The notes beneath the pieces were generated by a model that saw nothing but the letters and a program-made list of their open reading frames with translations, searched no databases and was not told the origin of the DNA. From contig NC_088304.1 of NCBI RefSeq assembly GCF_032854445.1, positions 21,835,704 to 21,899,703 of the forward strand: a stretch of 64,000 bases of DNA. Reading direction: 5' to 3'. Origin of the DNA: Liolophura sinensis. Its lineage: Eukaryota; Mollusca; Polyplacophora; Chitonida; Chitonidae. Of this stretch, positions 5,231 through 44,500 are shown in pieces. Each line of letters begins with the position of its first letter. The stretch's first letter is position 1. A program made the translations under genes and the position numbers.

Positions 5231-5959
5231 TTTATTATTAATAAGTACTGACTAACACTGGACCAAATATGATGTTCTACAATATAACGTTATACTACAT
5301 AACTTGTTCACGGGTCTGTACAACGTCTGGGTTTGGGATCTTGTGAGGGCTGTGAGCTACAGTTTCCTCTTGTACTTTGTCCTAGACTATGATGTCGTCG
5401 TCGTATCCATTCCACAGGTGCCCCTTGGATGCAAGCCTTGTATATGCTAGGACATCTGTTTTGTACACTTTGCACGAGGCTAAATTTACCATCCACATCT
5501 TCATCTACTCGTCCAGGCCACAAGTACTACTCGTCCAGACCACAAGGCCCAAACAGGTTGTATCCAGTGTCCAAATATCTGAGTGCTCTGTTCTCTATTA
5601 TATCGAGTAATACAACAAGGGGAAATCACTGGAGTGCTCACCACACAAGTCAGAAAATGCTGGAAGATAGGGCAGAAATGACCTGGGAATGACGAACCCC
5701 ACGATCAAGTACACGACTACACAACGTACAGTACACTGAAGCAATAATTTAAAGTCATACATGCGAAACACAATGAGTGAACTTCAGGGCAAAAGTTTTG
5801 ATCTACAATGTATCACAATGACTTGGAGGTGCACTGTAAGCAAAAATCGTGCTCAGAGTTGAGCCACGGTTAAAGCCAGTCGGCAAGTTACTGCCCCTTA
5901 CTAACGTTCTTCTATCACCATAGCAGTGACATTCAATCACCAAGGCAGTGACACCGCCC

Positions 5960-20334: not shown

Positions 20335-23300
20335 ATGGCTCTTAACAAGTTTATGCACCCAAGAAACATCTACAAGAAGCCCCCAGACTTCAAACAGTTG
20401 GCTGTTGATTGGCCAGAGTTCAGGAAACATGTGACTCAAGAGCTGAATGGGAAAGTCACGCTAGACTTTAAAAATGCTGATGCTCTTCGCTGTTTGACTA
20501 AGATTTTGTTGAAGAAAGACTTTGGACTGGACGTAGATATGCCTCTTGATCGCCTAATTCCCACCATCCCTCAGAGGGTTAATTATATTCTGTGGCTGGA
20601 GGACGTCCTGCACGAGTCCAAGCTGGAAAGTGGTCAACCAGTAAGAGGAATTGACATAGGTTTGTACAGTAAACATGGATGTATCTTAAAGGATAAATGA
20701 AATGACTGTCTAAACTGCAGATTAGGGGAAATGAAGACAGTTGTGCGCCCTTATAAGGTTCATGAATCAATCAGAATGTGTCTTGTCACTTAAGGTATGC
20801 TAAAGTTTAGGTGAAATACAGTATGTTCCTCAGACAGGGGAGCAGTATCCTCTGGGCTCTTGGTGCAGTCTGACATGTAAAGACATAAACTGTATTAGAC
20901 CAGCCCCGACAACACAGTTGGTAGAGCATCCGCTTCGGGAGCGGTAGATCCAGGTTCTATCCTGGTTTCAGTCACACCAAAGACTTTAAAAGAGGAAGTT
21001 GTAACGTTCTCGCTTGGCGTTCAGCATGAAGGGGTTAGTGCAAAGACTGGTTGACCTGTATCGGTAGTGCAAAGACTGGTTGACCCATATCGGTAGTGCA
21101 AAGACTGGTTGACCCGTATCGGCATACGGGGTGGGGCGGGGCAGGGCAGCTTACTTGACTTCGGTAAGGCATCTCAGTGAAGCAGCACTAGATAAAAGAG
21201 CGGTGGAAATCAGTGCTGCAACAAGGAGGCACATTACATGCAGTCTAAGGATTCCTTTGTCATCATATGACTGAAAAATTGTTAAGTACAACGTTAAACC
21301 CCAAGCACTCACTCACTCACTATAACTGTTTTGCTCACCCAGGAAGTGGGGCTTCCTGTGTTTACCCTCTCCTCGGTTGTAAGATGAACAATTGGCATTT
21401 CCTGGCAACTGAGGTGGATGAAGAAAATCTGGTCTACGCTCGTCAAAATGTTGAAAAAAACAGATTTTCTGAGATGATAACAGGTAATTTTTTTTTCAGC
21501 TTTTTTTAAGGTCTAAAATTTTTCTTTTATTACAAGGTGTTATTTATAACTGTCTGTTCTATTTCTGCCAGCAATGAATTGGGTTTCCTTATGGGTAGTG
21601 TATTATATTGTTATATTTTACTGTGAAATATCCTTGGCTCAGTTGGTTAGCGCGCTTTCGCAGCGTAAAAACCCATGAGTCTCTCACCAATGCGGTCGCC
21701 GTGAGTTCAAGTTCAGCTCATGCTGGCTTCCTCTCCGGTTGTACGTGGAAAGGTCATGCAGCAACCTGCGGATGGTCGTGGGTTTCCCCCAGGCTATGCC
21801 TGGTTTCCACCCACCATAATGCTGGCCACCGTCATATAAGTGAAATATTCTTGAGTACGGCATAAAACACCAATCAAATAAATAAGTAAATTTGGACTAT
21901 GTATAAAGATACATGTTAGTGAAAGTAAATATATCACTATTGTCACCTGGTAGACATCTGTGACCAAGAGGAGGAACATGACTCGAGAGTCTCTAACCAG
22001 TGCAGTTGCTGTGAGTTCAAGTACAGCTCCTGCTGGCTCTCTCTCCAATTATTGTTTTTGCTCTGCCGAGTTTCCACCCACCAAAAGTGAGTTATGAAAA
22101 TATGTGAAAAATGGTGAAGTATTCCATAGTATGATGTAAAAACGCCAATCAAATAAACAATAAAAAAATTAACTAAATGGCAAAAGAAAGCAGGATTTTG
22201 ATAGTATAGGATTTTTATGATCAGTGATTTTTGCAAACTTTATGTTTAGCCACCAAATACAGACTAAGTATTAAATTGCTTTAATGCACTGTTATATAAA
22301 TGCTTTCAATACAGTGTTTATCCAACAAAATGCAATGTTTTTTTAATAAAATGTGACTTTGTAAAGTCTGAAATGTTACATTTTTGCAGTTGGATATCAT
22401 CCTACCTAACAAACCTCAAAAGACTTTTCTAAGATCAATAGACTTCCCAGAATCAGGCAAAATGAGCAAAATAGGTCAGTTACATAATTGATTCCTTTTG
22501 ATGTGGCATTTCAGTTCAGAAAGTGTCACCTGAATCTGTACTTGCTGGTGTGGTGACGGAGACCTCAGCGCCATTTGATTTCTGTATGTGTAACCCACCG
22601 TTCTTTGCGGACCACATGGAAGCACAGGGTCTGACGTCCCGCAGTGATGATCGCCCTGACCCCCGCTCATCCAGCATGGCCAGCTGTGTGGAGCAGATCG
22701 CAGATGGCGGAGAGGTCGCATTTGTGAAAAAAATGATCTACGAAAGCCTTGAACTTAAAGATAAAATCAGGTAATGGTTGAATTTCTGATGGCACTGAGG
22801 AGGAGTAAAGATAGTAAACAGTTGTACTTGGGATACTTCGAAGTATTTGAATTTTGTTGAAGGTTTTCAAAACCTTGAAAGTCCTTGTTAAAGATAAGTC
22901 TTTGAAAGTTTTTCAATGATATACGTCGTATTTCATTATTAACCTGCGGATGGACGTGGGTTTCCCAGGGACCTTGCCCAGTTTCATGCCACCATAATGC
23001 TGGCTTCCATCATATAAGTAAAATATGCTTGAGTACGGTGTAAAACACCAATTTTATTATCTTTCAATTGGACCAATAAATATCTACCAAAGTACTATCC
23101 ATTAATCTCAGCTTGAAGGTTTGTAATGCAATGTAATGGTCCTGGAAATTGCTTAAAAACAAGGAATATTATGTTCATGATAATCCTTGAAAATCATTGT
23201 TTTTCACGTTGGGATTCCTGGATGAAATTGTTCTTAGAGAATGTGAAAATATTTGGCCACATGTTTTGAAATAACGGAATGTATTTTTTGACACCTGCAG

Positions 23301-26300
23301 TGTCACAGTCAGGCTGTCAACAAAAACTACCCAATCAGCTCTTCAATAAAGGTCTTTAAACAGAAGTTTTATACAGTATTCATTATACTTTTATTTCCCC
23401 TAATTCTGGATTGGTAGTATTCATAAAAATTGTTTACATTTATGTTACCCTTAGGTTTATGTTTCTTTTTGTTAGGATATTCACCAGCATGCTTGGTAAA
23501 AAATCCAGTTTAGTTCCGTTGAAAAATGAGCTGAGACTTCTTAAGGTAAGAGTAGGTCAACCTGTTGTCCAAAAGAAACCACATTATATTGTTTACCATG
23601 ATGTTTACACATGACGTGGCGTCCTTGGGTAAAGTATGATTGTTTAAAAGAGGAAATATAAGCAGTCCATTTTGGAACAATGCAAGTATTTTAATATTAC
23701 TTACATTATAAAGGCAAGCATTTTAGCACCCCAGCTGCCTTTTGTCACACCAGTGTGATATAATCAACAGAACATATGAGGAATAGATAAGGGAATTCGT
23801 AAGTAAACAGCCCATTCAGTGTCCTGTCTGGGTGGGGTGTCATGTGTGTCGTATCTTGGTGTTCCGCTCACAGCTCACTGACACCCTGATTGGCTCTGTC
23901 AACTCAAGTGTTATTCTTAAGTGCCCAGCCTGGATGAAGTGTCATGTCTGGTGTCTTGGTGGTCGAGTGAACCAGTACACCGTGTCTGTGTGGGGTGTCA
24001 TGTATGGTGTTGTTGGCATGGTGATGAGCTCACAGCCCTTACTGGCTCATTGAGTTAAATTGTTACTCTGAAACGTCCAGTCTGGATCCAGTGTCATGTT
24101 TGGTGTCTTGTGCACGTTGCACTAGTTAGTGAAGCAGATTCCGGCTTGCTGGGGCCGTTGCTGGCTCAGTCAGGTAAAATGTTGTTCTTGATACAGCAGA
24201 CTGGCCTCTGTTCAGTGAACTTGAGATCAGTCAGATCAAAGTCTTGCAAGTTTACTTCTGGCTTTAAGTCAGGAGGTTTGTCTGATCCTTTGTTTAGACC
24301 TGGTTTCCTCCCCTTGTTTCCACCAGTGGTTTCCTCCACTCGTTTTCACTACTCGTTTCCTCCGCAGTAAACCTGACCACAAACATGAGAGTTAAAATTC
24401 CTGAGAACAACAATAAGTAAATAAATACTTAGATCCATTTTTATTGAGACTGGCCTACTGCAAGGACAGACCGTCATGTTATGATCAAAACAGTTGTGAT
24501 GTTAAAACCCAGAGAAATGGTCGGAACCTGCCTGTGTTTGTTTTGCAGGTTCCAAAGTTCAGTAGTACAGAGTTCTGTCAGGGTAAAACGATGAGGTGGG
24601 GGATAGGCTGGTCATATGATGAGACAGTTGTCTTCCCTGTGAGTGCTGTGCAAAACTGTTATCATTCTACCAGGCCCCGTTGTTTGAAAGTGTATTATCA
24701 GTTAAGCCCGGGATTAACATCAGTGTAGATTAAAATGCCATTAGGTTTGTAATAGGCCAAGACTGGTCCTAGATTTAAGCCCGGCTTCACTTAATACGCC
24801 TTTGAGCAATTGACCCCTGTCTTGAAGCCATTGTGAATACCTAAGTGAGATGGCTATAGTTTCATGTTAAGAGAAAGCCATTGTGTCAAGTAATTCGAAG
24901 GAGAAAAGTATCTTGTGCACAGTATTTCCTGAATTCACGTACAGTGTATGTGTATGAAAATGCAGGTTTGAATTCAGGCCATGTGTTAAAGATTGCAAGT
25001 AGTTATTTACTTAATTCAATTTTGATTGGTCAGAAATGCAGCCTTTTTTCTTCTTTCAAGTTATGTCTGGATTCTCTTTCTTCCCATCAGAAATCACTGT
25101 TCCAAGAAAAAAAGAAGGACAAGCCACCACTGGTTTATGTGATTCCGGAAACTGGCCCATGGCAGAGTTACAGTGTGGAGAGTGTGACACAGGTCATCAC
25201 CAAACATCTACAGCAGCTTCAGGTGAGTGCTGGGAGATTTCTGTTGTCAAGGTAACAGTGGAGGAGTTAGTGTGGAGAGTGTGACAGAAGTCATAACCAA
25301 ACATTTACAGCAGCTTCAGGAGAGTGCTGGGAGATTTCTGTTGTCAAGGTAACAGTGGAGGAGTTAGTGTGGAGAGTGTGACAGAAGTCATCACCAAACA
25401 TTTACAGCAGCTTCAGGTGAGTGATGGGAGATTTCTGTTGTCAAGGTAACAGTGGAGGAGTTAGTGTGGAGAGTGTGACAGAAGTCATCACCGAACATCT
25501 ACAGCAGCTTCAGGTGAGTGCTGGGAGATTTCTGTTGTCAAGGTAACAGTGGAGGAGTTTGTGTGGAGAGTGTGACAGAAGTCATCACCAAACATTTACA
25601 GCAGCTTCAGGTGAGTGCTGGGGGATTTCTGTTGTCAAGGTAACAGTGGAGGAGTTAGTGTGGAGAGTGTGACACAGGTCATCAGGGAAAATCTACAACA
25701 GCTTCAGGTGAGTGATCGGAGATTTCTGTTGTCAAGGTAACAGTGGAGGAGTTAGTGTGGAGAGTGTGACAGAAGTCATCAGGGAACATCTACAACAGCT
25801 TCATGTGAGTGATGGGAGATTTCTGTTGTCATGATAACTGAAGAGGAGGTACAGTGTAGAGAGTGTGACACAGCGCATAATAGGACATCTACAACAGCTA
25901 CAGGTGAGTGATAGGAGATTTCAGTTATCATGGTAACTGTAGAGGAGGTACAGTGTGGAGAGTGTGGCACAGCACATAATAGGACATCTCCAACAGCTAC
26001 AGGTGAGTTATAGGAGATTTCAGTTATCATTGTAACTGAAGAGGAGTTACAGTGTGGAGAGCGTGACACAGCACATAATAGGACATCTCCAACAGCTACA
26101 GGTGAGTGATAGGAGGTTTCAGTTATCATGGTAACTGTAGAGGAGGTACACTGTGGAGAGTGTGGCACAGCACATAATAGGACATCTTCAACAGCTACAG
26201 GTGAGTGATAGGAGATTTCAGTTATCATGGTAACTGTAGAGGAGGTACAGTGTGGAGAGTGTGGCACAGCACATAATAGGACATCTCCAACAGCTACAGG

Positions 26301-27349
26301 TGAGTGATAGGAGATTTCAGTTGTCATGGTAACTGAAGAGGAGGTACACTGTGGAGAGTGTGGCACAGCACATAATAGGACATCTCCAACAGCTACAGGT
26401 GAGTGATAGGAGATTTCAGTTATCATGGTAACTGTAGAGGAGTTGCGGGAACCCCATTTTAATGAGCTCCAGAGCTGAAGAGACAGAGCAGAGAAGAAAG
26501 CTAAATTTCGTTCTAGTGGGAAGGTCTGCCAGCAACCTGCGGATGGTCGTGCGTTTCCCCGGGCTCTGCCCGGTTTCCACCCACAATAATGCTGGCCGCT
26601 GTGATATAAGTGAAATATTGTTGAGTATGGCATAAAACACCAATCAAATAAATAAAGAAAGAAATAAAGAAATGAATTCGCTTCTTGATGTATTATTTAT
26701 TTTTTTTATCTTCTAGATCAAGTGTAAAAAGCGCAAGTCAAACAAGCAGTTTCAGCGCCTAGCATTGTGTGCAGTAGAAAACACTTGGAGCAACCAAAGA
26801 AGGAAACGAAGAGCACTGAGAAAACAGACGATGGAGCCAAGTAAGGGAAAACCAGGGGAGATAGCTCAGACAGAGGGAGACAATTCTTCAATCCAGTGTA
26901 AAACGGATCAAAATTTGTCAGCTTCCATCAGTGCAGAAGGTACCTCTGAATATGTGCAGGTGAAGGAGGACGCTGGGACCTCAATAAATGATAACGGGAA
27001 GAGAAAACTTGAAAATGATGATTGTCATGAGGCTCAGAATGGGAATAAAACACTGTGTGTCAATGACAAAATTGCTACTGAGGGAATAAGCAATGATGAA
27101 CAAAACCTTGATACAAAGACAAAACCTGACGAGCAAACGGCTGCAAAATCTGCAGACATTAACACCTCTGAAAAGAGTGACATGAACAGCAGAACCAAGG
27201 AGGCCTTCTTGTTCAAGTGCCTGCTTGACATACGACAGGGAGAGAGTGGTGAAATCAGCCTGGAGATGTCCTGGCTTGAGGGAGAAAACAGGGAGTCCAT
27301 GCATCAGGTCATGCAGTATCTCAAAAATCAGCTGAATCATAAGGCTTAA
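20335..27349 (+). CDS. METTL16: METTL16 RNA N6-adenosine methyltransferase, 7 coding exons
   Basis: METTL16 uses S-adenosylmethionine to make m6A in U6 snRNA (the ACAGAGA box that pairs with 5' splice sites) and in hairpins of MAT2A mRNA, which couples MAT2A expression to SAM level. Coding exons: 20335-20659, 21343-21483, 22515-22770, 23476-23545, 24549-24638, 25091-25222, 26717-27349. Phases join cleanly to 548 aa (human has 562). The N-terminal region (MALNKFMHPRN, later PPDF) is family-typical. The SAM-binding GIDIGSGASC lies near residue 108 and the catalytic NPPF at about 182-185. Later come MLGKKSSL and EFCQGKTMRW. The last exon has a basic stretch, a long charged low-complexity linker (about 355-500), and a C-terminal block FLFKCLLDIRQ to the end that matches the second vertebrate-conserved region. 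A non-coding first exon is implied by the acceptor at 20,321-20,322. AATAAA at 27,921 is a possible poly(A) signal. Intron 6 is mostly a tandem array of its own 5' splice site. Confidence 0.95.
20905..21321 (+). mobile_element. Full-length SINE family B copy with internal triplication
   Basis: The tRNA-like head (CAGTTGGTAGAGCATCCGC and GATCCAGGTTCTATCC) is followed by the family B body and the 3' module TCATATGACTGAAAAATTGT..GTTAAACCCCAAGCACTC with a (CACT)n end. A 29-bp block TAGTGCAAAGACTGGTTGAC..TCGG is present three times (about 21,037-21,122). The element stops about 20 bases before the METTL16 exon 2 acceptor (21,341-21,342), so its tail borders the polypyrimidine tract. Confidence 0.85.
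21629..21890 (+). mobile_element. Full-length SINE family A copy
   Basis: tRNA-like head TTGGCTCAGTTGGTTAGCGC (A box) and GAGTTCAAGTTC (B box), body TGCTGGCTTCCTCTCC to CATAATGCTGGCCACCGTCA, then GTGAAATATTCTTGAGTACG and a CAATCAAATAAATAAG tail. It lies in METTL16 intron 2. Confidence 0.88.
21958..22172 (+). mobile_element. Diverged SINE family A copy
   Basis: AGTCTCTAACCAGTGCAG, TTGCTGTGAGTTCAAG and CTCCTGCTGGC match the head and body; the 3' end is ACGCCAATCAAATAAAC. The central part is heavily mutated or deleted. Confidence 0.75.
22941..23055 (+). mobile_element. 5'-truncated SINE family A fragment
   Basis: AACCTGCGGATGGACGTGGG through CACCATAATGCTGGC and TTGAGTACGGTGTAAAACAC. It lies in METTL16 intron 3. 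Confidence 0.8.
23830..24125 (+). repeat. Imperfect repeats in METTL16 intron 4
   Basis: A segment with GTGTCATGT-TGGTGTCTTGG and CTGGCTC-GTCA-TCAAGTGTTA-TCT-AA-TGCCCAG-CTGGAT recurs about three times at roughly 100-120 bp. Divergence is high and boundaries are uncertain. Confidence 0.45.
25173..26447 (+). repeat. 97/99-bp tandem array of the METTL16 exon 6 splice donor, 13 copies
   Basis: The first copy is the true end of METTL16 exon 6 (50 exonic bases, 25173-25222) plus 47 intronic bases. Copy starts follow at 25270, 25367, 25464, 25561, 25658 and 25755 (97-bp steps). Then come 25854, 25953, 26052, 26151, 26250 and 26349 (99-bp steps, a second subfamily). Nearly every copy keeps CAG|GTGAGT. 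Copy 2 has GT changed to GA, and copy 7 has CAT before the GT. The exonic part still reads like the amphipathic helix VESVTQVITKHLQQLQ in most copies. It fills most of intron 6. Skipping to a downstream donor would read in-frame stops. Confidence 0.93.
26515..26672 (+). mobile_element. 5'-truncated SINE family A copy
   Basis: GTGGGAAGGTCTGCCAGCAA to CACCAATCAAATAAATAAAG. It sits between the 97/99-bp array and the METTL16 exon 7 acceptor (26,715-26,716). Confidence 0.85.
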
Positions 27350-28554
27350 ATATGCCATTTTTTTCATTATTTATAAAGTGTCAATGTCAGCATTTCCGTT
27401 TCACTATGCAGTCTAGCCTGGAAATAAGCTGCAGTACAAGGACATTGCTGTGCACCCAATGGTATTTTGGAAGAGACAGATTGTTTAGATGCAGGACAAA
27501 ACCCCCCATGTAAACAACATTGTAACATTTTACTAAAATGGATAGATGGAAATCTTTCCAATTATACCTTTACATCAACTTGAAAATTATTTCCATGCAT
27601 ATAGAATGTATAGTATCACATCATATGATCGCTGCATGGCTGGTTGTAAAAAGTGTCCAAAAAAACATCTTCTGTTGTTATATATGCCGTAGTATTTGTG
27701 AACTGGCCCTTTGCACGCTTTATAAACGTAATTAAAATATTCAGAAACAGTGACATATTACAGAAAAGACCAAAACGATGCACCACTTGGACTGACTTGT
27801 CTTAGACGAAATGTGTTTACCCTTGTGTTGTCTGTGATTAGGTATGTTGACGTCTGATCTGCTTCTCTTGTTATACTTCTGTTATACAAATACTTTTGAT
27901 AAGACTGATATAAATTGTCAAATAAATTACCGGGATATTGAATAGTGAACTGTTTCCACCACAATGATTCACCTTGATAACATACAAAGTCACTGCTCTG
28001 CAATCCTGTACGCATACGATAAACAGCCCTAGTTGTGACAGTATGGTAATTTTGGCCTTACAGATGTAATGGCGAGATCTTAGCACTCACTAAGTAGAGA
28101 ATAATGCATGTATCTACATGTGTATGGCTGTCAATCAGTCTACTTTATATTGGCTTAGCGGGCAATATTTAAACGTATCACACGACTTCATGCAGCTTTA
28201 CGAACTTCTCAGTCCGGTGTGTTATCGGTGTTCTGAAGGTACATATTGTATTAGAGACTCTCGAGGTTTGTTACCGTCATTTTTGTGTGCGTGGTATCAT
28301 TATGTATGCGTGCCTGTATTATGTCATACATAAAATCACATCATGCAAATTAAACAGAGGATGTCATTTCATTTGATAGATATTATGTAATGCAGGGTGT
28401 TAAATGTACTTTGTTGATGGACAGGATCCATTCATGATTTAAAAAAAAAACTTTGTTATATTTGTTGTTTTGCTTTCTTCAGTAGCTGAGAAAATAAAAT
28501 TTCTTAAAATCTCACCATACAGGTTGTTGTATTTGTAGAAAGGTATTGTTAATC
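27350..28554. other. METTL16 3' flank
   Basis: AT-rich sequence after the METTL16 stop, probably its 3' UTR. AATAAA occurs at 27,921-27,926 and again in AAAATAAAATTTC near 28,492. No exon or structured RNA seen. Confidence 0.4.
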
Positions 28555-28776
28555 CTATATCTTCTAAAACTTGGGATACCTGGTCTGCTCATTTCAGCCA
28601 ATATATACGTACCTGTAGCCAGAATATTGAGTTTCTTTTTTTCTTACATGGTTAGACCATCTAATGAAGAACATATTCATATCTTTACTTTTCCAAAAGG
28701 CTGGTAAAGACATGGAATATTCTACTTTCAACTCTACTGATACCTGTCTCAAATTTTAGAAGAATTAGGGTATGTA
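28555..28776. mobile_element. MITE-like element, family 2
   Basis: Left end CTATATCTTCTAAAACTTGG and right end CAAATTTTAGAAGAATTAGG form an imperfect inverted pair. The interior matches 10,612-10,830. Confidence 0.7.
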
Positions 28777-28895
28777 CATATAATATTACATACATGTATA
28801 TTTGTATAAGATGCATCTTGTGCAGTCGTATATGTGAACCAAATTTCCAGTGTAATATCAAGGTGGAATGTGCGAGTCTAAAGCCTATATGTAAC

Positions 28896-29033
28896 GGGGG
28901 TCAGCAACCTGTGGATGGTCGTGGGTTTTGCTCGGGCTCTGCCAAGTTTCCTCCCACCGTAATCCTGGTCGCCGTCGTATAAGTGAAATATTCTTGAGTA
29001 CAGCGTAAAACACCAATCAAGTAAATAAATAAA
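28896..29033 (+). mobile_element. 5'-truncated SINE family A copy with target-site duplication
   Basis: TCAGCAACCTGTGGATGGTC to CACCAATCAAGTAAATAAAT, flanked by TATATGTAAC at 28886-28895 and 29034-29043. Confidence 0.87.
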
Positions 29034-29529
29034 TATATGTAACTGTGGGGCAGTGTAATACCACGCCATCCACCATCTTGTAAACAAATATGACTCCATT
29101 TTAAGCGTATAATGCATACAAAAAATGATGCCATGATGCAACTGTCTGCTGAGTTTAGCCCTTGGGACATTCACAATCTGATGGCTCTTCATTATTTTTT
29201 TTCTGTTTTAATTTTTTGTGAACATCTTCATAAACTCTTTTCACCTGTATTTTTGTGTTAAAAAATTTCCGAGCCTTTCTAAACCAATGCTGTTCAATAA
29301 AAACTGGCAGGTTGTCAATGTGTCGGTCTTATTCGAGACAAGAAATGTTTGGTTCTACTCTGGCTCTACTATGACATTTCATCAGGAGGTTTGTTAGCCT
29401 TCTGGTAATATGTGTAAAGGCAAAGAAAACACCAAAATAAAGTATTTATCAGATAAAAGACCATTTAACACTGTCCAGGAAAATAGTTTGACTTATTTTT
29501 TTTCAGAATTTTTCTAACCGACTGAAATG

Positions 29530-29622
29530 CATTTAAAACATAGGATTCTATGGTGGTCTGTTGGGACCAACGAAAATACATTTAAAACATAGGATTCTAT
29601 GGTGGTCTGTTGGGACCCAAAG
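29530..29622. repeat. 49-bp direct duplication
   Basis: CATTTAAAACATAGGATTCT..GGTCTGTTGGGACC occurs at 29530 and 29579, nearly identical, so recent. Confidence 0.9.
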
Positions 29623-31243
29623 GGTGTCAGTGGTGTCACAGCAATATTTTTGGTTTGAAATAGTTCATTTCAAGGTCTATATGTTGAGTGCATTCATAGC
29701 TCTAAATGGAGATGCATTTTTCCCCCTTCAATCATTAACTTAATTGCCTTAGCACATCTACAATGCGAAAGATTTTGTATACATTTATTAATTAGTCTAT
29801 GCAATGATATTTCCCTTGTGCGTCAAAAAAGTGAAGTTAAAGATTCGATAAAACAGCAGTGCCTGGAATAACCCACTGGCCATTGGCAAGTCACTGATGA
29901 ACTTTCTGATGCAATGCACAGATTGTCACCAATCCAGTTGGAAGAAATATCCAGTGGACTTCATGTAAGATCACACAAACCATGAGCCCATGAGCATCGG
30001 TAACTGCTTACTGCCGTCTTGTCCCGAAGAATCATGAAGAGGCAGCAGAATGAGTTTGTATTTTTGTGATGATACCCTACATGTAATTCCTCAACCTTTC
30101 CATCACATGAAAGAGCAACTTTCTGTGCAGTTTATGATCATTTTTAATTTGATTTTGGAGACAAAACTACCCTAAATGACTTAAATTCGTCCATAAAAGA
30201 GCACTTTTTTTTAGAGGCACATAAACGTCACAAAATGTTATTCTCGTTGCTGAAACTAACAATTTTCCAGCAGAATATCATCCCATGTTCAAAGCAAACC
30301 TCAAAATACCTAAAATCAATAGAACGCTCTGAATCAGGAAAAATGGTTAGCTTAGTCATGGGCGAAATTTAAGGTCATTTAGGGCACATTGGTTGGATTG
30401 GCCACTTTCAGAGCTTCACAAAAACTATAATTTTATCATAATGCCTTAAGAGCATGCTTGAAGAAAAACCTTGCAAACATGCAGAGAGATTGAAGAATTA
30501 CAGTACATGTTGAATTCCAGAAACTCTTTAATTTCCTGGCAAACTATAGAAAGTTTTAATAAATTTTTACACATAATCTGGTAGTTTCTGGATTTTTAAC
30601 AGTTCTTTGCATTTATCAGCGCATCAGTCATGTAAGGAGAAATTACGCTTCAGAGCGAGATTTGCAGGTTATCAAATAGATTCATGTTCACGTGTCAGAA
30701 CTATTATTTGGAATTAAATTCATGTTGAGAAGCAGGATTTCGCATTACATGAACTATATCCCCTCTTATCTCTGATCAAAAAAAAAAAAGAGGCAAGATT
30801 TTTCTAACTTCATAACATACATGTAATCCCAAAATTAATTTATTTCATAATTTGACACAAAATACAATCAAAGCGAGACATTTTCACTCTTTCATACTTG
30901 TATTTCCATTCTCTCATCTTCATGCAAATTCATGATTAATCTTCCCACTTGAGTGCACTAATCTTCCCACTTGAGTGCACTCAAGTATTTGCAGTGTGAA
31001 CTGCGGCAGGTATTTCACAATTGTAAGTCTTCATTCACACATGACTGAACACCACCAGTCCTCAGATGGTTGGAAGCTTTCTGGCGGAGGGAACCAGGCA
31101 GGCAGACTGGATTTTACATTACACATGTATGCGAATTCACATATTTACAAAGCATGGGGGTGAATGCAAATGTACTGGCGGAAATCCAGATCTAATGCGA
31201 ACAACCAGTACCGATATGTAGAACATATATGTAAATGAATGCT
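29623..31243. other. Intergenic stretch between convergent METTL16 and GLE1
   Basis: No gene seen. A reverse fragment of MITE family 4 lies at about 30,083-30,176 (TTCCTCAACCTTTCCAT at its end). A 22-bp direct duplication (TAATCTTCCCACTTGAGTGC) sits at 30,937-30,981. Confidence 0.5.
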
Positions 31244-31249
31244 GTATTT

Positions 31250-31457
31250 ATTTATTTATTTGATTGGTGTTTTACACCGGGTGGAAACCGGGCAGAGCCC
31301 AGGGGAAACCCACGACCATCCACAGGTTGCTGGCAGACCTTCCCACGTACGACCAGAGAAGAAGCCAGCATAAGCTGGACTTGAACTCACAGTGGCCGCA
31401 TTGGTGAGAGACTCCTGGGTCATTACGCTCCCCTAGCGCGCTAACCAACTGAGCCAG
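31250..31457 (-). mobile_element. SINE family A copy with internal deletion
   Basis: Reverse copy with tail (TTTA)n, GATTGGTGTTTTACACCGGG and an intact head (CTAGCGCGCTAACCAACTGA). The block between the tail region and GGTGGAAACC is deleted. A 12-bp near-perfect duplication AATG(C/A)TGTATTT flanks it. Confidence 0.85.
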
Positions 31458-32563
31458 AATGATGTATTTGAAACTTGCATATCATTATACGTTCAAATGA
31501 AGCTATAGTACACCTTTCAAACTTCAATAAAACTCACAATAGGGTTTCAAGTCAAATACGGCAACTACAGCTTAACACCACATTGGCATTATTTCAGATA
31601 AATTATGGAGACAATTCGTATGTAGAAGAGTCCTGTGAATTCATTCAATTATCTACATCAGAAGTACATAAACGGAGAGAAGTGTGCAACGCTGTCTTTA
31701 TATGATGTCCCCATCTAGGTACTCCCACCCCACGTTGATTGGTGCATACACTCACAACAATGCCCCATCTGACATTTCTATTTATTTTGTGACGAACGCG
31801 TCACAATGCAATCTGGTGAAACTGACAGTACTTGATGATTGCAGGCATGCACACTACAGATCATTTCCCATAATTCCTCTGTATTACATAACTGCATGCT
31901 TTTCGCAACATCAGACCAGCGGGAGCACAGACGCAAGAACAATGTGTACCATATAATGCAGTGGCAAACTTCTCTCTATGTACATGAACTTCTGCTTACA
32001 TCCAATGCTAACAACCATTGTGAACAATATTCAGCATTGCTTTACCCCAATTCTTTCACCTTTTCAATCACCTCTGCAACTAATATTTTGAAACATTCTG
32101 AGAGAACCATTTGGTGTAGAGAACCGATTTGTACAGTTTTATGAAGCTTGTCTCCGTAGTGATTCAAGCAAATAATTTTTAAGCATAATTCTGATAATAA
32201 TTGATTGCTTCAATTCCACTCAAAAAAAGTGTTTTAGTCATGTCAGTGGCTGTAAAAACTGAAGGCTTGAAGTTGAGGATTTACAGTACAATAATATACA
32301 GTACACAATAGAATCTGCACCCATTCTTTTCTTAATGAACATGAGTACTACTGCAAAGATATTAACACATTTCGCTCAGTAGTGTGGGCAGAAAGCTTTT
32401 AAGGCTAATTATGGAACAAGACATTCATTTTCTGCATCTGTTCATTACATTTTCAAGCCGAAGCTGATCAACAGGTTCATCAGACCTGATTATCGCTAAC
32501 AAACTTGAATTCATTTTGAACAACGTGTACCATATAATGCAGTGGCAAACTTCTCTCTCTTGT
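31458..32563. other. GLE1 3' flank
   Basis: The probable GLE1 3' UTR and downstream DNA. TTTATT (AATAAA on the minus strand) lies at 31,781-31,786. A diverged fragment of SINE family D is near 31,566-31,612 and of MITE family 3 at about 32,049-32,280. CGTGTACCATATAATGCAGTGGC at about 32,524 repeats a block near 31,941, within 200 bases of sequence that look duplicated. Confidence 0.4.
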
Positions 32564-35500
32564 TCATGTGTACCAGAATTTCTGTTCGAGGAACCCTTCA
32601 GGGGGCGGGACTTGACCCCCGGTCTTGATGCACGACTCTAGGAAAGTCTTTAGCCTGGCAACAGGCCCCCCAGTCATGACAACCTCCTGAATCTTAGGCA
32701 TGTAAACAGTTAGTAGATAATGCAGCAACTTTTGAAACTGTTTGTTGTAAGTGTGGTGCAGAGCATGCCCGGTGACCTCCAGAAGGTCAAAGATCAAGGT
32801 GGCAGTGATGTCAGGGTGAGGTCGCATGTTCATTATGTTGGTGAGCCAAGTCCAGGCATGTTGGATGCCGTACGGATGTGATGATTGACTCCTGGGTGAG
32901 CATGACACCATGATAGCTGCGTACAACCGCATTAGACCCGACATTCTCTTCAGGAACTTGTCCTGCTTCTCCACAGCACCATTTACAAACTTATATCCCT
33001 GAGCCCTAGAGAACAAAAAAAAAAACCCAATAACATTCACAAATTTGTAGCCCAGAGCTCTGGACAAATACAAACACTCACAATCACAAATTTGTAGTTC
33101 TGAGCCCTGGACAAAAATACAGACATATTAACAAAACATGTAGCCAGGGGCCTTGAACAAATTACAGACAAGCACATTTACAAATTTGTACTCCTCAGCC
33201 CTGAACAAAAAAACACTACAGACAATCACATTCACAACTATGTAGACCAGAGACCTGGACAAAATACAATCAAATCAACTGCTCATTGCACCAAGTCCCA
33301 CAAACAGTGAGATTGAGGGAATCAACTTGCCTGTCCAAGGCCAGAATGACACCATTTTGAGGTTATTTTATTTGCTACTTTCAATTCTATATGTATGTAT
33401 GTATGCTTGGGGTTTAACATTGTACTAACAATTTTCAGTTATATGACGACGTCATATCACCATGCCACCAATGTGCTGCTGCCAGACATGACACCCCACC
33501 CAGTTACATTATACGAACACCGGGCCAACTGGTCATGTTTCCTTGCTCTAACATGCGAGGAGGCAGCAGGTGCCATTTTTTAAATCTTTGTTGTGACCCA
33601 CCTCGGGTTTGATCCAAAGGTCTCTCGACTTCAAGGCAGACGCTCTAACCATTAGGCCACTGAAGGCGTCATATTCAATTATAGGAGTCACAGAAGATGA
33701 CAGGTAACAAATCACAGAGGGGCTAATTCTAAGTCTGTAGTTTTGATGATGCGTAGTTGTTTGCCTGAACTCTGCATAGTGTTTACATTTATATCTTAAT
33801 TGCAAATTTAGCACTTTCACAACAAACTGAACACAACCCTGTTAAATTTTTCACTTTACGTGTGAAGGAACCCAAAGATTCTGGAGCAAACCACCGATCT
33901 ATGTCAGGCATCCCACAATCCTCTCTACTTAAAAGCTGCAGCCAAACCACCGAGACCTGGACTCTGATTTTTGACCACAACACTTTTTATTCAAAAAATG
34001 AATGAATAATTATGGTTTAATGCCACATCGGCAATATTTCAGCCATTTCGTGGCGAGAACAAGGTGCAAACACGACGTGGTTCACTGTTAATTCCGGCAT
34101 ACATACTGTAAGTGTTGATCTGTAGTTTGACCCTCTAACTGGGGCACATAGTACGGGACCAGGTATGGACAGGCTGCGTGGAAATGAGCCAACAGAAGGT
34201 CTCCTAGGTCTGGATGCTCCGCCCACACTCCCACTGTTACCATGGCAATGGCGAATGCTGATTCATGTATTGAGGACACCTGCTCATCTGCTTTTTTCTG
34301 AAACATTACAAAATAATTCTGATCTAAGAAATGTAAATCATGACGAAAATTTTACAAAAATTTGAAATCCATGTATTTACAAATTAATTTCTCTTATTTA
34401 TTTATTCGATTGGTCTTTAACGTGTACTCAAAAATAACTCCTTATACACCAGTGGCCAGCACTATGGTGAAAGGAAACCGGGCTGGTTGTGGTATAACCA
34501 CAACCATCCGCAGGTTACTACCAGGCCTTCATCACAATAGGTCAGGTCATCACAACAAAAATGAAAATTTTCAACTGCGCTTGCAAATTACAACTAGATT
34601 GCCATTTGCCAATCTTGAAGCCACTATGGTGATAAACTCTCTTGGCAGCTGGCTGAGGAAGCGCTTCTACCATCTGGCCTGGTTTATTTATCCTCAAAAA
34701 ACCCAAAAAAACAATGCAATATGCATGAAATGTCACACCCTGACTGTGATGTAAAAAGCAGATTTAATTACATGGCTGCATAATTGTTCCCCTGAATTTT
34801 GTGCTGAGGGTATCCATATTTCATTGTGATGAACAGCACTGTAAAAGAAAGTAACAAAAAACAGTTTTTCTGGAATGGTCAGGCAGCTTTAACTGCAAGC
34901 AAACCTGTCAGCAGATTCTCGGGTGAAAGAATCCTGTGTTTGTTAAGCATAGAGCACACGGATCAGATTACTGTGTCAAATGATCTGGAATACATGTTAC
35001 CAACACATGAGCGACATTTGCTGTCCGTTTTAGGAAATTCCAGCGGCGAAAGACGGTAACATACTATGTTCAAGGTCATGTGACCTCAAAAAGTTATGTT
35101 GCAGCTCCCATTTTGTACTACCAAGTAGTCACATGACATTTCCATAGGTGCTGACCGGTTGATGTAGAAGACAACAATCTTAGTCCAGTACCAAAACCCT
35201 TATTACCTCCAATGTTCTGACAACATAGGGTCTTGTACTGACTACCTCCATGGCTTAATTTGCCGCTGTTTCATTGGCTGAGATATTTACTAGGCACTGA
35301 TGCTACATTCAAAATTTAGGATGGCCAGGGAGAGCACAATCACTTGAAAATTTTCCTGTCAGAAGTATTACTGTGCCATGACATAACATGTTAGGTGTTT
35401 CTCAGAGAGGGAATCCCTTCTATCTTTGACACATGTTACATATAATATATAAGCCTACGTGAAAATGATTGGCCAGCAGATTCTGACAGAACTTAATCCT

Positions 35501-38500
35501 GTGTTTGTTAACTGAATAACTGAGCAGCTCTTACCACAAGCATCCTGGCCAGCAGATTCTTACAGAACAGAATCCTGTGTTTGTTAACTGAATGACTGAG
35601 CAGCTCTTACCACAAGCATCCTGGCCAGCAGATTCTTACAGAACAGTATCCTGTGTTTGTTAACTGAATGACTGAGCAGCTCTTACCACAAGCATCCTGG
35701 CCAGTAGATTCTTACAGAACAGTATCCTGTGTTTGTTAACTGAATGACTGAGCAGCTCTTACCACAAGCATTCTGGCCAGTAGATTCTTACAGAACTTAA
35801 TCCTGTGTTTGTTAACTGAATAACTGAGCAGCTCTTACCACAAGCATTCTGGCCAGCAGATTCTTACAGAACTTAATCCTGTGTTTGTTAACTGAATGAC
35901 TGAGCAGCTCTTACCACAAGCATTCTGGCCAGTAGATTCTTACAGAACTTAATCCTGTGTTTGTTAACTGAATGACTGAGCAGCTCTTACCACAAGCATT
36001 CTGGCCAGCAGATTCTTACAGAACTTAATCCTGTGTTTGTTAACTGAATGACTGAGCAGCTCTTACCACAAGCATTCTGGCCAGTAGATTCTTACAGAAC
36101 TTAATCCTGTGTTTGTTAACTGAATGACTGAGCAGCTCTTACCACAAGCATTCTGGCCAGCAGATTCTTACAGAACAGTATCCTGTGTTTGTTAACTGAA
36201 TGACTGAGCAGCTCTTACCACAAGCATTCTGGCCAGCAGATTCTTACAGAAGTTAATCCTGTGTTTGTTAGCTGAATGACTGAGCAGCTCTTACCACAAG
36301 CATCCTGGCCAGTAGATTCTTACAGAACAGAATCCTGTGTTTGTTAGCTGAATGACTGAGCAGCTCTTACCACAAGCATCCTGGCCAGCAGATTCTTACA
36401 GAACTTAATCCTGTGTTTGTTAACTGAATGACTGAGCAGCTCTTACCACAAGCATTCTGGCCAGCAAATTCTTACAGAAGTTAATTCTGTGTTTGTTAAC
36501 TGAATGACTGAGCAGCTCTTACCACAAGCATCCTGGCCAGTAGATTCTTACAGAACAGTATCCTGTGTTTGTTAACTGAATGACTGAGCAGCTCTTACCA
36601 CAAGCATCCTGGCCAGCAGATTCTTACAGAACAGTATCCTGTGTTTGTTAACTGAATGACTGAGCAGCTCTTACCACAAGCATCCTGGCCAGTAGATTCT
36701 TACAGAACAGAATCCTGTGTTTGTTAACTGAATGACTGAGCAGCTCTTACCACAAGCATTCTGGCCAGCAGATTCTTACAGAACTTAATCCTGTGTTTGT
36801 TAACTGAATGACTGAGCAGCTCTTACCACAAGCATCCTGGCCAGCAGATTCTTACAGAACTTAATCCTGTGTTTGTTAGCTGAATGACTGAGCAGCTCTT
36901 ACCACAAGCATTCTGGCCAGCAGATTCTTACAGAACTTAATCCTGTGTTTGTTAGCTGAATGACTGAGCAGCTCTTACCACAAGCATTCTGGCAAGCAGA
37001 TTCTGACAGAACTTAATCCTGTGTTTGTTAACTGAATGACTGAGCAGCTCTTACCACAAGCATTCTGGCCAGCAGATTCTTACAGAACTTAATCCTGTGT
37101 TTGTTAACTGAATGACTGAGCAGCTCTTACCACAAGCATTCTGGCCAGCAGATTCTTACAGAACTTAATCCTGTGTTTGTTAACTGAATGACTGAGCAGC
37201 TCTTACCACAAGCATTCTGGCAAGCAGATTCTGACAGAACTTAATCCTGTGTTTGTTAACTGAATGACTGAGCAGCTCTTACCACAAGCATTCTGGCCAG
37301 CAGATTCTTACAGAACTTAATCCTGTGTTTGTTAACTGAATGACTGAGCAGCTCTTACCACAACCATTCTGGCCAGCAGATTCTTACAGAACTTAATCCT
37401 GTGTTTGTTAACTGAATGACTGAGCAGCTCATACCACAAGCATCCTGGCCAGTAGATTCTTACAGAACAGAATCCTGTGTTTGTTAACTGAATAAATGAG
37501 CAGCTCTTACCACAAGCATTCTGGCCAGCAGATTCTTACAGAAGTTAATCCTGTGTTTGTTAGTTGAATGACTGAGCAGCTCTTACCACAAGCATTCTGG
37601 CCAGTAGATTCTTACAGAACTTAATCCTGTGTTTGTTAGCTGAATGACTGAGCAGCTCTTACCACAAGCATCCTGGCCAGTAGATTCTTACAGAACAGAA
37701 TCCTGTGTTTGTTAACTGAATGACTGAGCAGCTCTTACCACAAGCATCCTGGCCAGTAGATTCTTACAGAACAGGATCCTGTGTTTGTTAGCTGAATAAC
37801 TCAGCAGCTCTTACCACAAGCATCCTGGCCAGCAGATTCTTACAGAACAGTATCCTGTGTTTGTTAACTGAATAACTCAGCAGCTCTTACCACAAGCATC
37901 CTGGCCAGCAGATTCTTACAGAACAGTATCCTGTGTTTGTTAACTGAATAACTCAGCAGCTCTTACCACAAGCATCCTGGCCAGCAGATTCTTACAGAAC
38001 TTAATCCTGTGTTTGTTAAGTGAATGACTGAGCAGCTCTTACCACAAGCATTCTGGCCAGCAGATTCTTACAGAACAGAATCCCAAGTGGATGATCTTTG
38101 GCTGAGATCCTTTTTGATCCCACCTCAACAGAATGACCACCGAGCAGCTTGACCAATCGCAACAGCTTGTCCCTAAGGTGTTCCCCGCTGACCGGCGAGA
38201 TGGCGTTGACTGGTGTATTCACGGACTTCTGCAGGTCAAACTTGTATTGCTTCATCTAGAAAACAGACAAGCATAACAGAACAGATTCGTGGATTGCATT
38301 TATAACGTTGATTTGGTGACATCAAATTTTTCTTGTGCTTTACTCCAAAAATGGAGTAAAAAAAACCCTAAAATAATCCACATTCTTATTTTTTTCACCC
38401 CTTTTTTTTAATGATTTGCTTGCTTGTCAAAGATTTGTAATCACGTAAATATTTGTCTTCAACGGAAAAAATTGCAGGGACAGTTTAAATTTCCCACAAA

Positions 38501-41500
38501 TTAGTTTTGTTTTTATGTTCATCCCTTTCTCCGACACAAGAAAAAGATTTTTTTTCTGCCCATAAAACAACTGCATTTAAGTTCACAAACTTTGCTGTTG
38601 CCAGTATAGGGTATTTCTTTAACAAATGAAGTATACATTTTTAATTAGCATACTAATTTTGAATACTGGTAGGTGAAACACTTCAGTTTGATTTGCCATA
38701 TAATAAATGACATAAGAGTCCTAGTGTATTAGATAATATTAGATAATACTGGTACTAAGGCATATTTAGGTAAAATCTTTGCCGAATTCAGCAGCCGTTG
38801 TTCAATGTCAAAGGATAATGACAACAGATTAAGCTGATATTTAATATACTGCTACACACTTATTTTTAGGTTAATTACAAAACTGAAGACTGGGCATGAA
38901 GGTAAATCTGGAATCAAGGCTTAAAACAGCTTTGAACAATCTGGCCCTGATAACGCAGCATAAAAAACTCCTGTTTGCAATTTGCAAGGAGAGCTAAACA
39001 AGAGTGATACAGTCTAAATCATGAATATACATGAGCAGTTCTGTACAGTTGTTATACCTGAGGGTTTTTACTCAGCTCTTCTAACGACGTCTCCACCTGT
39101 TTCAGCTGTTTTTGGAGTCTGATGTAATTTTCAAAAGCTTTCTCAGGAGCTATCTGTGCTTCTTCAGCTGAAAACATAGGTGACATAATTGATTTATATA
39201 TTTCAACACACAAGTGTTTTTTAATGCTGTAAATACATATAAATACTATTTTCACTAATACAACAGTCCAAGACGTTTGACGTTTGTTGTGGCAAAATTT
39301 TGTTCAGCCAAGAATGGTCTCAAAACAATGTCAGAGCACGCTCCATTTGAAAACCTGATACAGTTACCTGCCCTTGTCAAATGTGTACAAATCTGCACAC
39401 GCTTAGAGTATCACCTCGGGCTCACACAGCCTAGAAAATAACTGATCAATATTGAGTTTGCGATAAATCAACAGTCGAAAAGGTAAGGATCATATTAAAA
39501 GTGTCTGCAAACTTCAGGCTGTATTTGATGGGTAATTTTTGTTTCAAACCGCTGAGAGAAATTGCCAAGGCAAGGGACAATTACGAAGAAAATATATTTA
39601 CTCACATAGTGAAGGTCCCCTCTCTCTGGCTTGTGCGGGCTGAACAGCTGGCTCTGGGGTTATGGTGCTAGCCTAATAACACAGACCAACAAATGGTATT
39701 AGATACACAAATAAAACACTGACATGTTAATCAAGGCATACCGCTAGCTCTCCACTCACACATTACACATACTTATTAAATTAAGGGCTCCACTGGGACA
39801 TACCACTAACTCACTATGACAAAGCATCAGATACCTATCTAAGGGTTCTCAATCATGCCCATAATACAAGATGGTCTGAAGGCATTCCTCTGGCATTCTT
39901 CTACTGAGGGGGTTGAGTCAAAAGTGAGTGCTGTGGCCTACAGACAGGAATTGGAGCATCCTTTCACTTAGAAATAGTTCACTTCGATTCCACAGGCATG
40001 CCTGAAGTAAACCACATGCAAGCCTGAAGCAAACCACAGGCATGCCTGAAGCAAGACACAGGCATGCCCGAAGCAAACCACAGACGAGGCTGCAGCAAAC
40101 CACAGGCATGTCTGAAGCAAACCACATGCATGCCTGCAGCAAACCACAGACAAGCCCGAAGCAAACTACAGGCAAGCCTGAAGCAAATGACGTGCAAGTC
40201 TGAAGCAAACCACAAGCAAGTCTAAAGCAAATGACATGCATGCCTGAAGCAAACCACAAGCAAGTCTAAAGCAAATGACATGCATGCCTGAAGCAAACCA
40301 TTGATATGTCTGAAACAAACCACAGGCATGCCTGCAGCAAACCACAGACAAGCAAGAAAAAAGCTACAGGCAAGCCTGAAGCAAACGACATGCAAGCCTG
40401 AAGCAAATGACATACAAGCCTGCAGCAAATCACAGGCAAGTCTGATGCAAACTACAGGCAAGCCTGAAGCAAACGACATGCAAGCCTGAAGCAAATGACA
40501 TGCAAGCCTGAAGCAAACCACAAGCAAGTCTGAAGTAAACCACATGCATGCCTGCAGCAAACCACAGACATATCTGAAGCAAACCACAGGCATGCCTGCA
40601 GCAAACCACAGACAAGCCCAAAGCAAACTACAGGCAAGCCTGAACGCAAACGACATGCAAGCCTGAAGCAAACCACAAGCAAGTCTGAAGCAAACCACAG
40701 GCATACCTAAAGCACACCATAGACCCAAAGGACCAGAAGCAAACTACAGGCACGCCTGAAGCAAACGACATGCAAGCCTGAAGCAAACGACATGCAAGCC
40801 TGAAGCAAATGACATGCAAACCTTTAGCACACCACACTTTTTGTGAAGCCCTGAAATCGGCCAATCCAAGAAATGTAGTTTTGTCTCCAAAATCAAATTA
40901 AAAACATGCATAAATTGCACTGAAAGTTTCTCTTTCATACATGGAAAGGATGAGGAATTAGGGTAGTATAGTTTTAGGTGGGTTGTTAGCCTTTGTCCTT
41001 TGTTACAGCTTAAGATCCACATCTTCTTATCTTCTTATGCAAAAAAGAAAACTTCAGCATATTTTGAAAGTACAAGTTTGAGTTACATATGTCTATGCTC
41101 ATTATACAGAACGACAGTCTTAGACTCACTGTTGTTGTTGTAGCAGGTGCTTGTTCCTGTTGCTGAACTTGAGCAGCTTGTTTTTCTTTCTCCTGTTTTT
41201 CCATTTCTCCTTTCTTGTTAGCTTGCTCTACAAAAAGCAAAAAACTTTCAAAAAACCTGATAAAAAAAAAAAATCATCACAGCGACTGTGAACAATAATG
41301 AAGGAGTTTCAGTTTACCTTTTCTCACCGTACAGACAGCCGACACTCACATCGGTGAGCAAAACTCATCAAGCTTTTTGCTTTACCCACTGGTTAACATA
41401 TGTACATTTCTCCTTTATAGGTCTACTGGGTTAATTCCCTGGGGCACGAATATCTACAAGCTGCCAACGAAAAGTCGCCACATATCAGCTATCCTTTGAA

Positions 41501-44500
41501 GAATGTTTTATACCTAGACAGTGACATCCCTGAATAAATTCCCAATCACACTTGCCAGCAAGTTTATCCTCTTGTATGTTGATAAGGTGGACTAGTAGTG
41601 ACACTCACCCGCTAAAGGGTACTCACCCATTGATGGGCAGAGGTACTCACTCACTAATGGGGACAGGTACTTGCCCACTTGTGGGGACAAGTGCTCGCTC
41701 ACTAATGGGAGCAAGCACCCGCCAACTAAGAGAGACAGGTACTCACCCACAAATGGGGACAGCTACTCGCTTATTAATGGAAACAGGTACTCGCCCACTG
41801 ATGGGCACAGGTAGTCACCCACTGGTGGGCACAGGTAGTCATCCACTGAAGGGCACAGGTACTTCATCACAAACGGGCACTGGTACTCATCCAGTGTTGG
41901 GGACAGGTACTTATCCATTAGTGGGGTCAGGTACTCACCCACAAATGGGTACAGATACTTACCCACAAACGGGCAGAGGTACTCACCCAAAACTGGGAAC
42001 AGGTACTCATCCATTAGTGGGCCCAGGTACTCACCCATTGATGGGCAGAGATACTTACCCACAAACGGGCAGAGGTACTCACCCAAAACTGGGAACAGGT
42101 ACTCATCCATTAGTGGGCCCAGGTACTCACCCACTGATGGGCACAGATACTTACCCACAAACGGGCAGAGGTACTCACCCAAAACTGAGAACAGGTACTC
42201 ATCCATTAGTGGGCTCAGGTACTCACCCATTGATGGGCACAGATACTTACCCACAAACGGGCACAGGTACTCACCCAAAACTGAGAACAGGTGCTCATCC
42301 ATTAGTGGGCTCAGGTACTCACCCATTGATGGGCACAGATACTCATAGACTAATGGGGACAGGTACTTACCCACAAACGGGCAGAGGTACTCACCCAAAA
42401 CTGAGAACAGGTACTCATCCATTAGTGGGCTCAGGTACTCACCCATTGATGGGCACAGATACTCATAGACTAATGGGGACAGGTACTCGCCCACAAATAG
42501 GGACAGGCACTCACTGACTAATAAGGACAAGAACTCGCTTAATAATGGAAACAGGTACTCGCCCACTGGTGGGCACAGGTAGTCACCCACTGGTGGGCAC
42601 AGGTAGTCACCCACTGGTGGGCACAGGTAGTCATCCACTGAAGGGCACAGGTAGCCACCCACTGGTGGGCACAGGTAGTCATCCATTGGTGGGCACAGGT
42701 ACTCACCCACTGGTGGGCACAGGTAGTCATCCACTGATGGGCACAGTTAGTCACCCACTACTGGGGACAGATACTCACCCACTACTGGGGACAGATACTC
42801 ACCCACTAATGAGGACATGCTCACCCATTAACAGGGACAGGTGCTCATTCACTAATAGGGACCGGCACTCACCCAATAACAGCAACAGGTGCTCAATCAC
42901 TAACAGGGACTGGTACTTATTAACCAAAGGGCCAAGATACTCACTTACCAATGGGTACAAGTACATGTACTCGCTCACTAATGGGAACAGGTACTTGCCC
43001 TTTAACAGGGACAAGACCTCACTCACAAATAGGGACAAGCGCTCACCCACTAACAGGGGCAGGTAGTCACCCACTAACAGTGACAAATACTCACCCACTA
43101 ATGGGACAGGTACTCACCCACTAATGGGACAGGTACTCACCCACTAATGGAACAGGTACTCACTCACTAATGGGACAGGTACTCACCCACTAATGGAGTG
43201 AGTGAGTGAGTGCTTGGAGTTTAACGTCGTACTCAACAATTTTTCAGTCACATGACGACGAAGGAATCCGTAGGGTGCACACCCACTAATGGAACAAGTA
43301 CTCACTCGCTAATGGGACAGGTACTCACTCACTAATGAGACAGGTACTCACCCACTAACGGGCACATGTACTCACCCACTAATGGGGACAGGTATTCAAG
43401 TGCATTCTGCGCCTGCTGTAACACAAGGTGTAACTTCTGGATGTGCTCCACGGACGCCTGCTGAGCCTGCGCCTGCTGTACGATACTCTCCGCCTTGTGT
43501 TTCAGCTGACTCAGGAGATCCTGAAACTTCTTGGCAGGTTCAGGCAGGTACTCTTTGTACTGACACATCTTGTATGCCATTGAGAGCTCCTCCTGGGTCT
43601 TTGTCAACTGGCCATAGATCTTCATTAAGGTTTGGAAACGTTTCTGGGTCTCCAACTGTCTGTAAATTTTACAAAAACATAAGACATAAAGTGTAAAGTC
43701 AAAAGAAATATCTCGTGTTGGTTTGGGGAAGAGCGAAGTCTCAAAGAAGATGATGGTACAGGGAATAACAAAATTGGATGCTTTGTAGAAATGCCTCCTG
43801 CCACGAACAGTTCATGTTTTCCTCAGTTTTAATCATAATGATTTTAAACCATGGACTTCGCAACAAGTTGACTGTTTTATTGTCGCTATTTTGTAAAAAA
43901 ATGGAAATAAAATGGGGAAAAAAATGGGAGAAAACTCTGGTGATAAAGCGTGACTACCCAGTATCTTTATACATGTGGACTGTCATGTCAAATATTCATT
44001 TTTAAACTGCAGGGTTGAAGCAGAATATAACATACTGTAAATAAATACTTGCAAACTAGGCCTACCAGCATATGAAGATGTCAAACTGTGATTAAAACTA
44101 CACCTACACATATGTAGATATAAGCCACTTACAATGACGAGACTTGAAATTTGCATATGTGTTCCCATCAATCACATGATTTTTGCTGGAGAAGGGCAAA
44201 ACAATAATCTTATCTGTCGCTGGCGACATGTAAATCCCGTCTGGGCAAAACTGTACGCAGGAAATCATAAAACATGCATTTTATTTTGATATAAAGCCAG
44301 TGACAGTGTTGTATGAACTCCCAGTAAAGTGTGATAACAATTAACTCAAACTCATGTCTCCTAATATGCCGGACTCACACACAGTGCTACCGACCAGGGG
44401 TAAAAGTTTTCGGAAACCTTACATGCCGTCAGTTTTCTGTGGTTAATGTGAGGTTCTCGACATAAAAACATGGGAAAAGGAACCCTTCTGCAATAGGAAG

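Follow-up and report, generated by a model that had tools for sequence, protein, structure and literature searches.

We analyzed a 64,000-nucleotide stretch of genomic DNA (the window) that contains two neighboring genes, METTL16 and GLE1. By combining Tandem Repeats Finder (TRF), gene models, and wraparound alignment, we found that four tandem arrays in these genes straddle splice junctions, three at donors and one at an acceptor. METTL16 lies on the plus strand, where its six modeled introns span positions 20660 to 26716; query residues 1 to 306 match PDB 6du4 (E = 9.5e-105), and the model combines this match with predicted junctions. GLE1 lies on the minus strand, with nine modeled introns spanning 33006 to 48830, and was identified by matches to PDB 7tbl/6b4f (E = 4.5e-73) and Pfam PF07817, which cover the C-terminal half of the protein. 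The remainder of the GLE1 model was set by GT-AG boundaries and reading frame.

The METTL16 donor array (25165 to 26444, plus strand) consists of 13 copies of a 97/99-bp unit, with GT intact in 12 of the 13. Its first copy holds the true donor, at 25223, which lies past the PDB match and was placed by its GT, by the frame, and by the in-frame stop that arises if copy 2 is used. On the minus strand, the GLE1-76 array (35470 to 38083; 76 bp, 34.4 copies) contains the donor whose first intron base is 38042; in transcript sense this donor belongs to the first copy, and GT is intact in 34 of 34 copies. The GLE1-24 array (41618 to 43398, minus strand; unit of ~24 bp, ~70 copies) has 65.8 copies in the main TRF row and 74 by wraparound alignment, of which 46 retain GT. 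The gene model puts a donor at 43375 (first intron base) inside this array, and GT and frame suggest that it is the first copy, a placement that stays inferred because one extra 24-bp unit keeps the frame open. The GLE1 acceptor array (33005 to 33275, minus strand) has six copies spaced 46 to 54 bp apart, with motif starts at 33255, 33201, 33153, 33107, 33060, and 33006, and the last of them holds the true acceptor, with 33006 as its last intron base. The TRF run on the window did not detect this array, which is degenerate but real: its wraparound score was 215, compared to a maximum of -100 over 30 block shuffles. A gap-free alignment to PDB GLE1 (7tbl) across both joins fixes donor 38042 and acceptor 33006.

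These positions and copy numbers agree with a preliminary description of the window, which had also claimed that the units are unrelated and arose independently, that the true site is always the outermost copy, and that the donor arrays fill most of their introns. Mutual likeness in the six pairs formed by the four units was no greater than that of shuffles (200 shuffles per pair), which supports independent origins. The outermost position was seen at the level of individual copies, the first GLE1-24 donor being the inferred case. From TRF and model coordinates, the arrays occupy ~69 to 82% of the three donor introns.

Junction overlap in conserved genes and splice motifs genome-wide

For a placement null, each array was collapsed to one unit and put at random in its own intron, and overlaps with either junction were counted. 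In the 15 introns of METTL16 and GLE1, 3 of 7 TRF arrays overlapped a junction, compared to 0.94 expected (P = 0.04), with the GLE1 acceptor array left out because TRF had missed it. This P value comes from the discovery set and carries no correction for the window having been singled out; it was kept apart from that of the sample described below, without pooling.

A genome-wide test was approximated through gene samples and motif patterns. Sample genes were picked by Pfam family, blind to repeats. From PF00118 we took nine CCT/HSP60 genes with several exons, omitting two copies poor in introns and two weak single matches, and from PF00227 we took 13 genes, omitting one single-match locus. For PF00071, 150 of 371 candidates were scored and 29 regions were hand-picked in which exon pairs are adjacent in the profile and no more than 7 kb apart, omitting longer pairs, one odd pair on contig C1, and pairs with a profile gap above ~12. 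Introns were kept when both ends were predicted; the score had to exceed 0 in the first two sets, which gave 50 introns (some junctions hand-set), and -8 in the Ras set, which gave 35, including two with scores below 0. Arrays were required to have a TRF score of at least 80, at least 2.5 copies, and a unit of at least 15 bp, thresholds that were fixed after the CCT rows had been viewed.

The resulting 85 introns comprise 170 junctions and 102,949 bp and contain 18 arrays. Five of the 170 junctions lie in arrays, and 5 of the 18 arrays overlap a junction, compared to 2.54 expected from random seeding (P = 0.089). Alternative thresholds, yielding 16 to 24 arrays, still gave five, with P values from 0.055 to 0.15. 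An earlier placement test that also used introns with one known end (4 of 12 arrays versus 2.24 expected) was replaced by this two-ended test. The five junction arrays cover the donors of CCT5, CCT3, and RALA and the acceptors of RAB30 and RAB35. The spliced proteins align without a gap to PDB chains of orthologs across all five joins (E = 3.4e-47 for CCT5, 1e-53 for CCT3, 1.1e-71 for RALA, 5.8e-39 for RAB30, and 2.6e-68 for RAB35). The other 13 arrays lie off junctions, and 2 of them start within 15 bp of a donor. Three further junction arrays, two of them in CCT3 and one in the proteasome gene PS12, lie outside the test, in introns for which one end is known. A candidate acceptor array at CCT_E 5720-5822 was rejected for its interior position.

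In the motif test, we scored triplets, in which an 8-mer recurs exactly three times at intervals of 12 to 42 bases, per single occurrence of the 8-mer, and used the reversed 8-mer as the control. Triplets of the donor motif CAGGTAAG numbered 895 per 30137 occurrences, compared to 285 per 14616 for its control (ratio, 1.5); for the donor motif CAGGTGAG the counts were 1539 per 29766 and 187 per 9028 (ratio, 2.5), and for the acceptor motif TTTTCAGG they were 293 per 40787 and 106 per 19004 (ratio, 1.3). No P value is attached to these ratios because matches clump within arrays. On contig C1 to ~80 Mb, the matches listed form 23 CAGGTAAG clusters, 12 of them in the first 6 Mb, and 6 control clusters, an excess among these matches of ~1.9-fold once the two-fold difference in motif frequency is allowed for. 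Together, these counts suggest, but fall short of proving, a moderate excess of arrays at putative donors genome-wide. Among the CAGGTAAG matches listed, the first 7 Mb of C1 is rich in donor-motif arrays compared to the next 70 Mb, and the CAGGTGAG matches listed all fall within those first 7 Mb.

Anatomy of the junction arrays

Twelve junction arrays, the four in the window and eight elsewhere, were read copy by copy by wraparound alignment. In all 8 donor arrays the true site comes first among the copies, and in all 4 acceptor arrays it comes last, a position that is largely expected, since conserved protein sequence demands it. Units range from 24 to 109 bp. Outside the window, GT is intact in 7 of 7 copies in CCT5, 11 of 11 and 5 of 6 in the CCT3 arrays, 4 of 4 in PS12, and 5 of 5 in RALA, and AG is intact in 9 of 9 copies in CCT3, 27 of 31 in RAB30, and 44 of 44 in RAB35, whose array thus presents 44 near-identical acceptors. 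We had considered a lower tolerance for acceptor arrays than for donor arrays and dropped this idea, given the 44 and 31 well-kept acceptor copies of RAB35 and RAB30.

Over the 12 arrays, 148 of 232 decoy copies equal or exceed the score of the true site in their own array, for example 41 of 43 in RAB35, 32 of 33 in GLE1-76, and 10 of 12 in METTL16; the share reaches 10 of 10 in CCT3. Reading on from the exon into the next copy meets a stop in six of the eight donor arrays, including GLE1-76, and stays open in the other two (GLE1-24 and CCT3). Per-copy divergence has no constant edge effect at the boundary copies. In all eight two-ended junction introns (five in the sample and three in the window), the array ends inside the intron and the opposite junction lies outside the repeat.

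Origin of the junction arrays

The preliminary description knew of no described class like this one, a claim that does not stand. Amphioxus "mirages" are tandem copies of intron/exon boundaries, both 5' and 3' (PMC3087553, PMC3902484), reported from a handful of genes, including the globins BflGb6 and BflGb9 and also PGBD5, Adh, and troponin C (PMC3902484). Their units measure 10 to 72 bp in Adh3 and 150 to 160 bp in the globins, length and somatic instability have been reported, and reverse transcription-PCR (RT-PCR) and Adh3 data suggested that regular splicing is undisturbed (PMC3087553). Mirages share the anatomy of our arrays: a minisatellite-size unit lies over an exon/intron boundary, the authentic site is kept, many copies retain AG or GT, and both donor boundaries (8 here) and acceptor boundaries (4 here) are affected. 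The class is therefore known, not new. In contrast to the 3 to 6 units described for BflGb6, our arrays hold up to 44 acceptors and 34 or ~70 donors.

The lineage also appears to differ from the cephalochordates in which mirages have been reported. The genome analyzed here encodes, on contig C6 (51357900 to 51359300), an FMRFamide precursor with three FLRFG and 18 FMRFG copies. Precursors of this FLRFG/FMRFG type are typical of molluscs and other lophotrochozoans. The mirage class therefore probably extends to a new, lophotrochozoan lineage; in the part of the open-license PMC literature that was searched, we found no report of mirage-type arrays outside cephalochordates. As far as we found, 5 of 170 junctions is also the first frequency estimate for such arrays, and this frequency in an apparently lophotrochozoan genome makes mirages appear to be something that a high density of minisatellites in introns generally produces. 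In this apparently mollusc-type animal, some introns of ordinary genes are crowded with dozens of copies of their own splice site.

We propose, with a probability of about 0.78, that the junction arrays are mirage-type minisatellites that arose from chance duplications spanning a junction and are tolerated because splicing keeps to the outermost site. This proposal starts from the observed junction overlap, the outermost position of the true site, the many intact decoys, and the conservation of the protein over several joins. By chance, a short tandem duplication would take in an exon/intron junction, and the junction unit would then be amplified and homogenized inside the intron through slippage or unequal exchange. 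Purifying selection would permit added copies on the intron side only, as the preliminary description had suggested and as our observations fit; the exon would keep its original end because exon-side copies would destroy the protein. The inner copies, many of which match the true site in score, would be decoys and would be tolerated because the splicing machinery takes the copy closest to the other end of the exon, as in exon definition. Coding continuity suggests that RNA splicing uses the outermost copy. In donor arrays this copy would also be the first transcribed; in acceptor arrays it would be the last, an outcome predicted by exon definition and not by first-come scanning. The arrays are thus natural tests of how one splice site is chosen among many alike: where tens of near-identical sites compete, as in RAB35 and GLE1-76, the choice should follow position and not strength, with opposite outcomes expected under exon definition and intron definition.

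Three sets of observations weigh against this proposal. In some arrays, site strength could settle the choice: the decoys that equal or outscore the true site are 0 of 5 for the GLE1 acceptor array, 1 of 5 for CCT_G_5373, 13 of 30 for RAB30, and 27 of 73 for GLE1-24. Over the 12 arrays, conservation is slightly higher in splice-motif columns than in other windows (Stouffer z = 1.73, P = 0.04). Finally, junction arrays are about twice as frequent as random seeding predicts and the motif ratios point in the same direction, so pure chance may not suffice.

That last point bears on the earlier statement that random minisatellites should not center on junctions four times. Much of this coincidence is explained by dense intronic minisatellites and post hoc choice, and our data are compatible with a modest excess; an excess of about two-fold at junctions may remain and is unproven. 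True enrichment would be expected if duplications were targeted to exon/intron junctions, for example by transcription-linked breaks, R-loops, or nucleosome edges, as the preliminary description had offered in part. The excess in the repeat-blind sample together with its two arrays starting close to a donor, the donor-motif triplets at 1.5 and 2.5 times their controls, and the three arrays whose starts lie 11 or 12 bp downstream of the first intron base all point this way. However, the sample gives P = 0.09 with most arrays off junctions, the motif counts are clumped, with about half of the listed C1 CAGGTAAG clusters in its first 6 Mb, and the acceptor ratio is just 1.3. Targeting is not shown by these results, and we consider it unlikely. 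We are similarly doubtful of its broadest form, in which exon ends would be preferred duplication starts, recurrent genome-wide in at least two distant animal lineages, with competing sites in thousands of introns resolved by exon definition.

The better conservation of motif columns, and decoys whose GT or AG is largely uneroded, would also be expected if positive selection kept the arrays because repeated sites recruit U1 small nuclear ribonucleoprotein or other factors and aid splicing or suppress premature polyadenylation. The same picture is expected from concerted evolution, though, and the conservation is weak and uneven, falling below the middle percentile in PS12, CCT_G_5373, and CCT_A, while 28 of 74 GLE1-24 copies have lost GT. 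We regard selection for the arrays as improbable.

Rogers (1989) and Zhuo (2007) reportedly described intron gain by tandem duplication, a model in which our arrays would be remnants of intron birth from an AG/GT-bearing exon segment. Such gain is treated in PMC4974935 and was proposed for amphioxus globins (PMC3087553); as in our arrays, the duplicated segment carries splice-site sequence. In that model, however, the repeat forms both ends of the new intron, whereas here one junction is covered and the repeat stops inside the intron (the METTL16 array ends at 26444 and the last intron base is 26716). With the opposite junction outside the array, we rejected intron birth as very improbable. 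Least probable of all is an assembly artifact, for although long arrays are hard to assemble, the copies differ among themselves, the pattern recurs in several genes on several contigs, the longest contig encountered measures 96 Mb, and the coding joins are intact.

These arrays are also close to ordinary intronic minisatellites, or variable-number tandem repeats, which they resemble in unit length, local origin, and similarity of copies. They differ in that the unit includes an exon end and a presumably working splice site.

Other arrays and features

Several window arrays lie away from junctions. A 22-bp array with 38 copies (39990 to 40836, minus strand, TRF) occupies an interior part of a GLE1 intron and counts against junction specificity; its minus-strand unit contains the acceptor-like TTGCTTCAG despite this position. 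It is one of the larger nonjunction TRF arrays in the METTL16 and GLE1 introns, with those at 21036 and 24300. A 24-bp TRF array (46754 to 46869, minus strand) begins 11 bp into a GLE1 intron, adjoining but excluding the donor at 46878. It is one of three arrays with starts 11 or 12 bp beyond the first base of the intron, the others being in CCT3 (L023, sense position 458) and at L046 (sense position 113). These three starts just beyond the donor motif, noticed post hoc, may reflect duplications that avoid copying the donor.

Two more of the larger TRF arrays, at 8777 to 8981 and 14144 to 14365, are apparently interior; they lie between open reading frames at ~6400 to 15200 (minus strand), which we take to be LIS1/PAFAH1B1 exons. 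A short element that ends in CACCAATCAAATAAATAAA or a similar sequence, presumably SINE (short interspersed element)-like, recurs at dispersed places in the window, for example at 21640 to 21880, 26520 to 26650, and 28900 to 29030. On contig C1 (40426756 to 40427255), two adjacent matches cover nearly the same part of the Ras profile (40 to 74 and 46 to 76), a possible duplicated exon.

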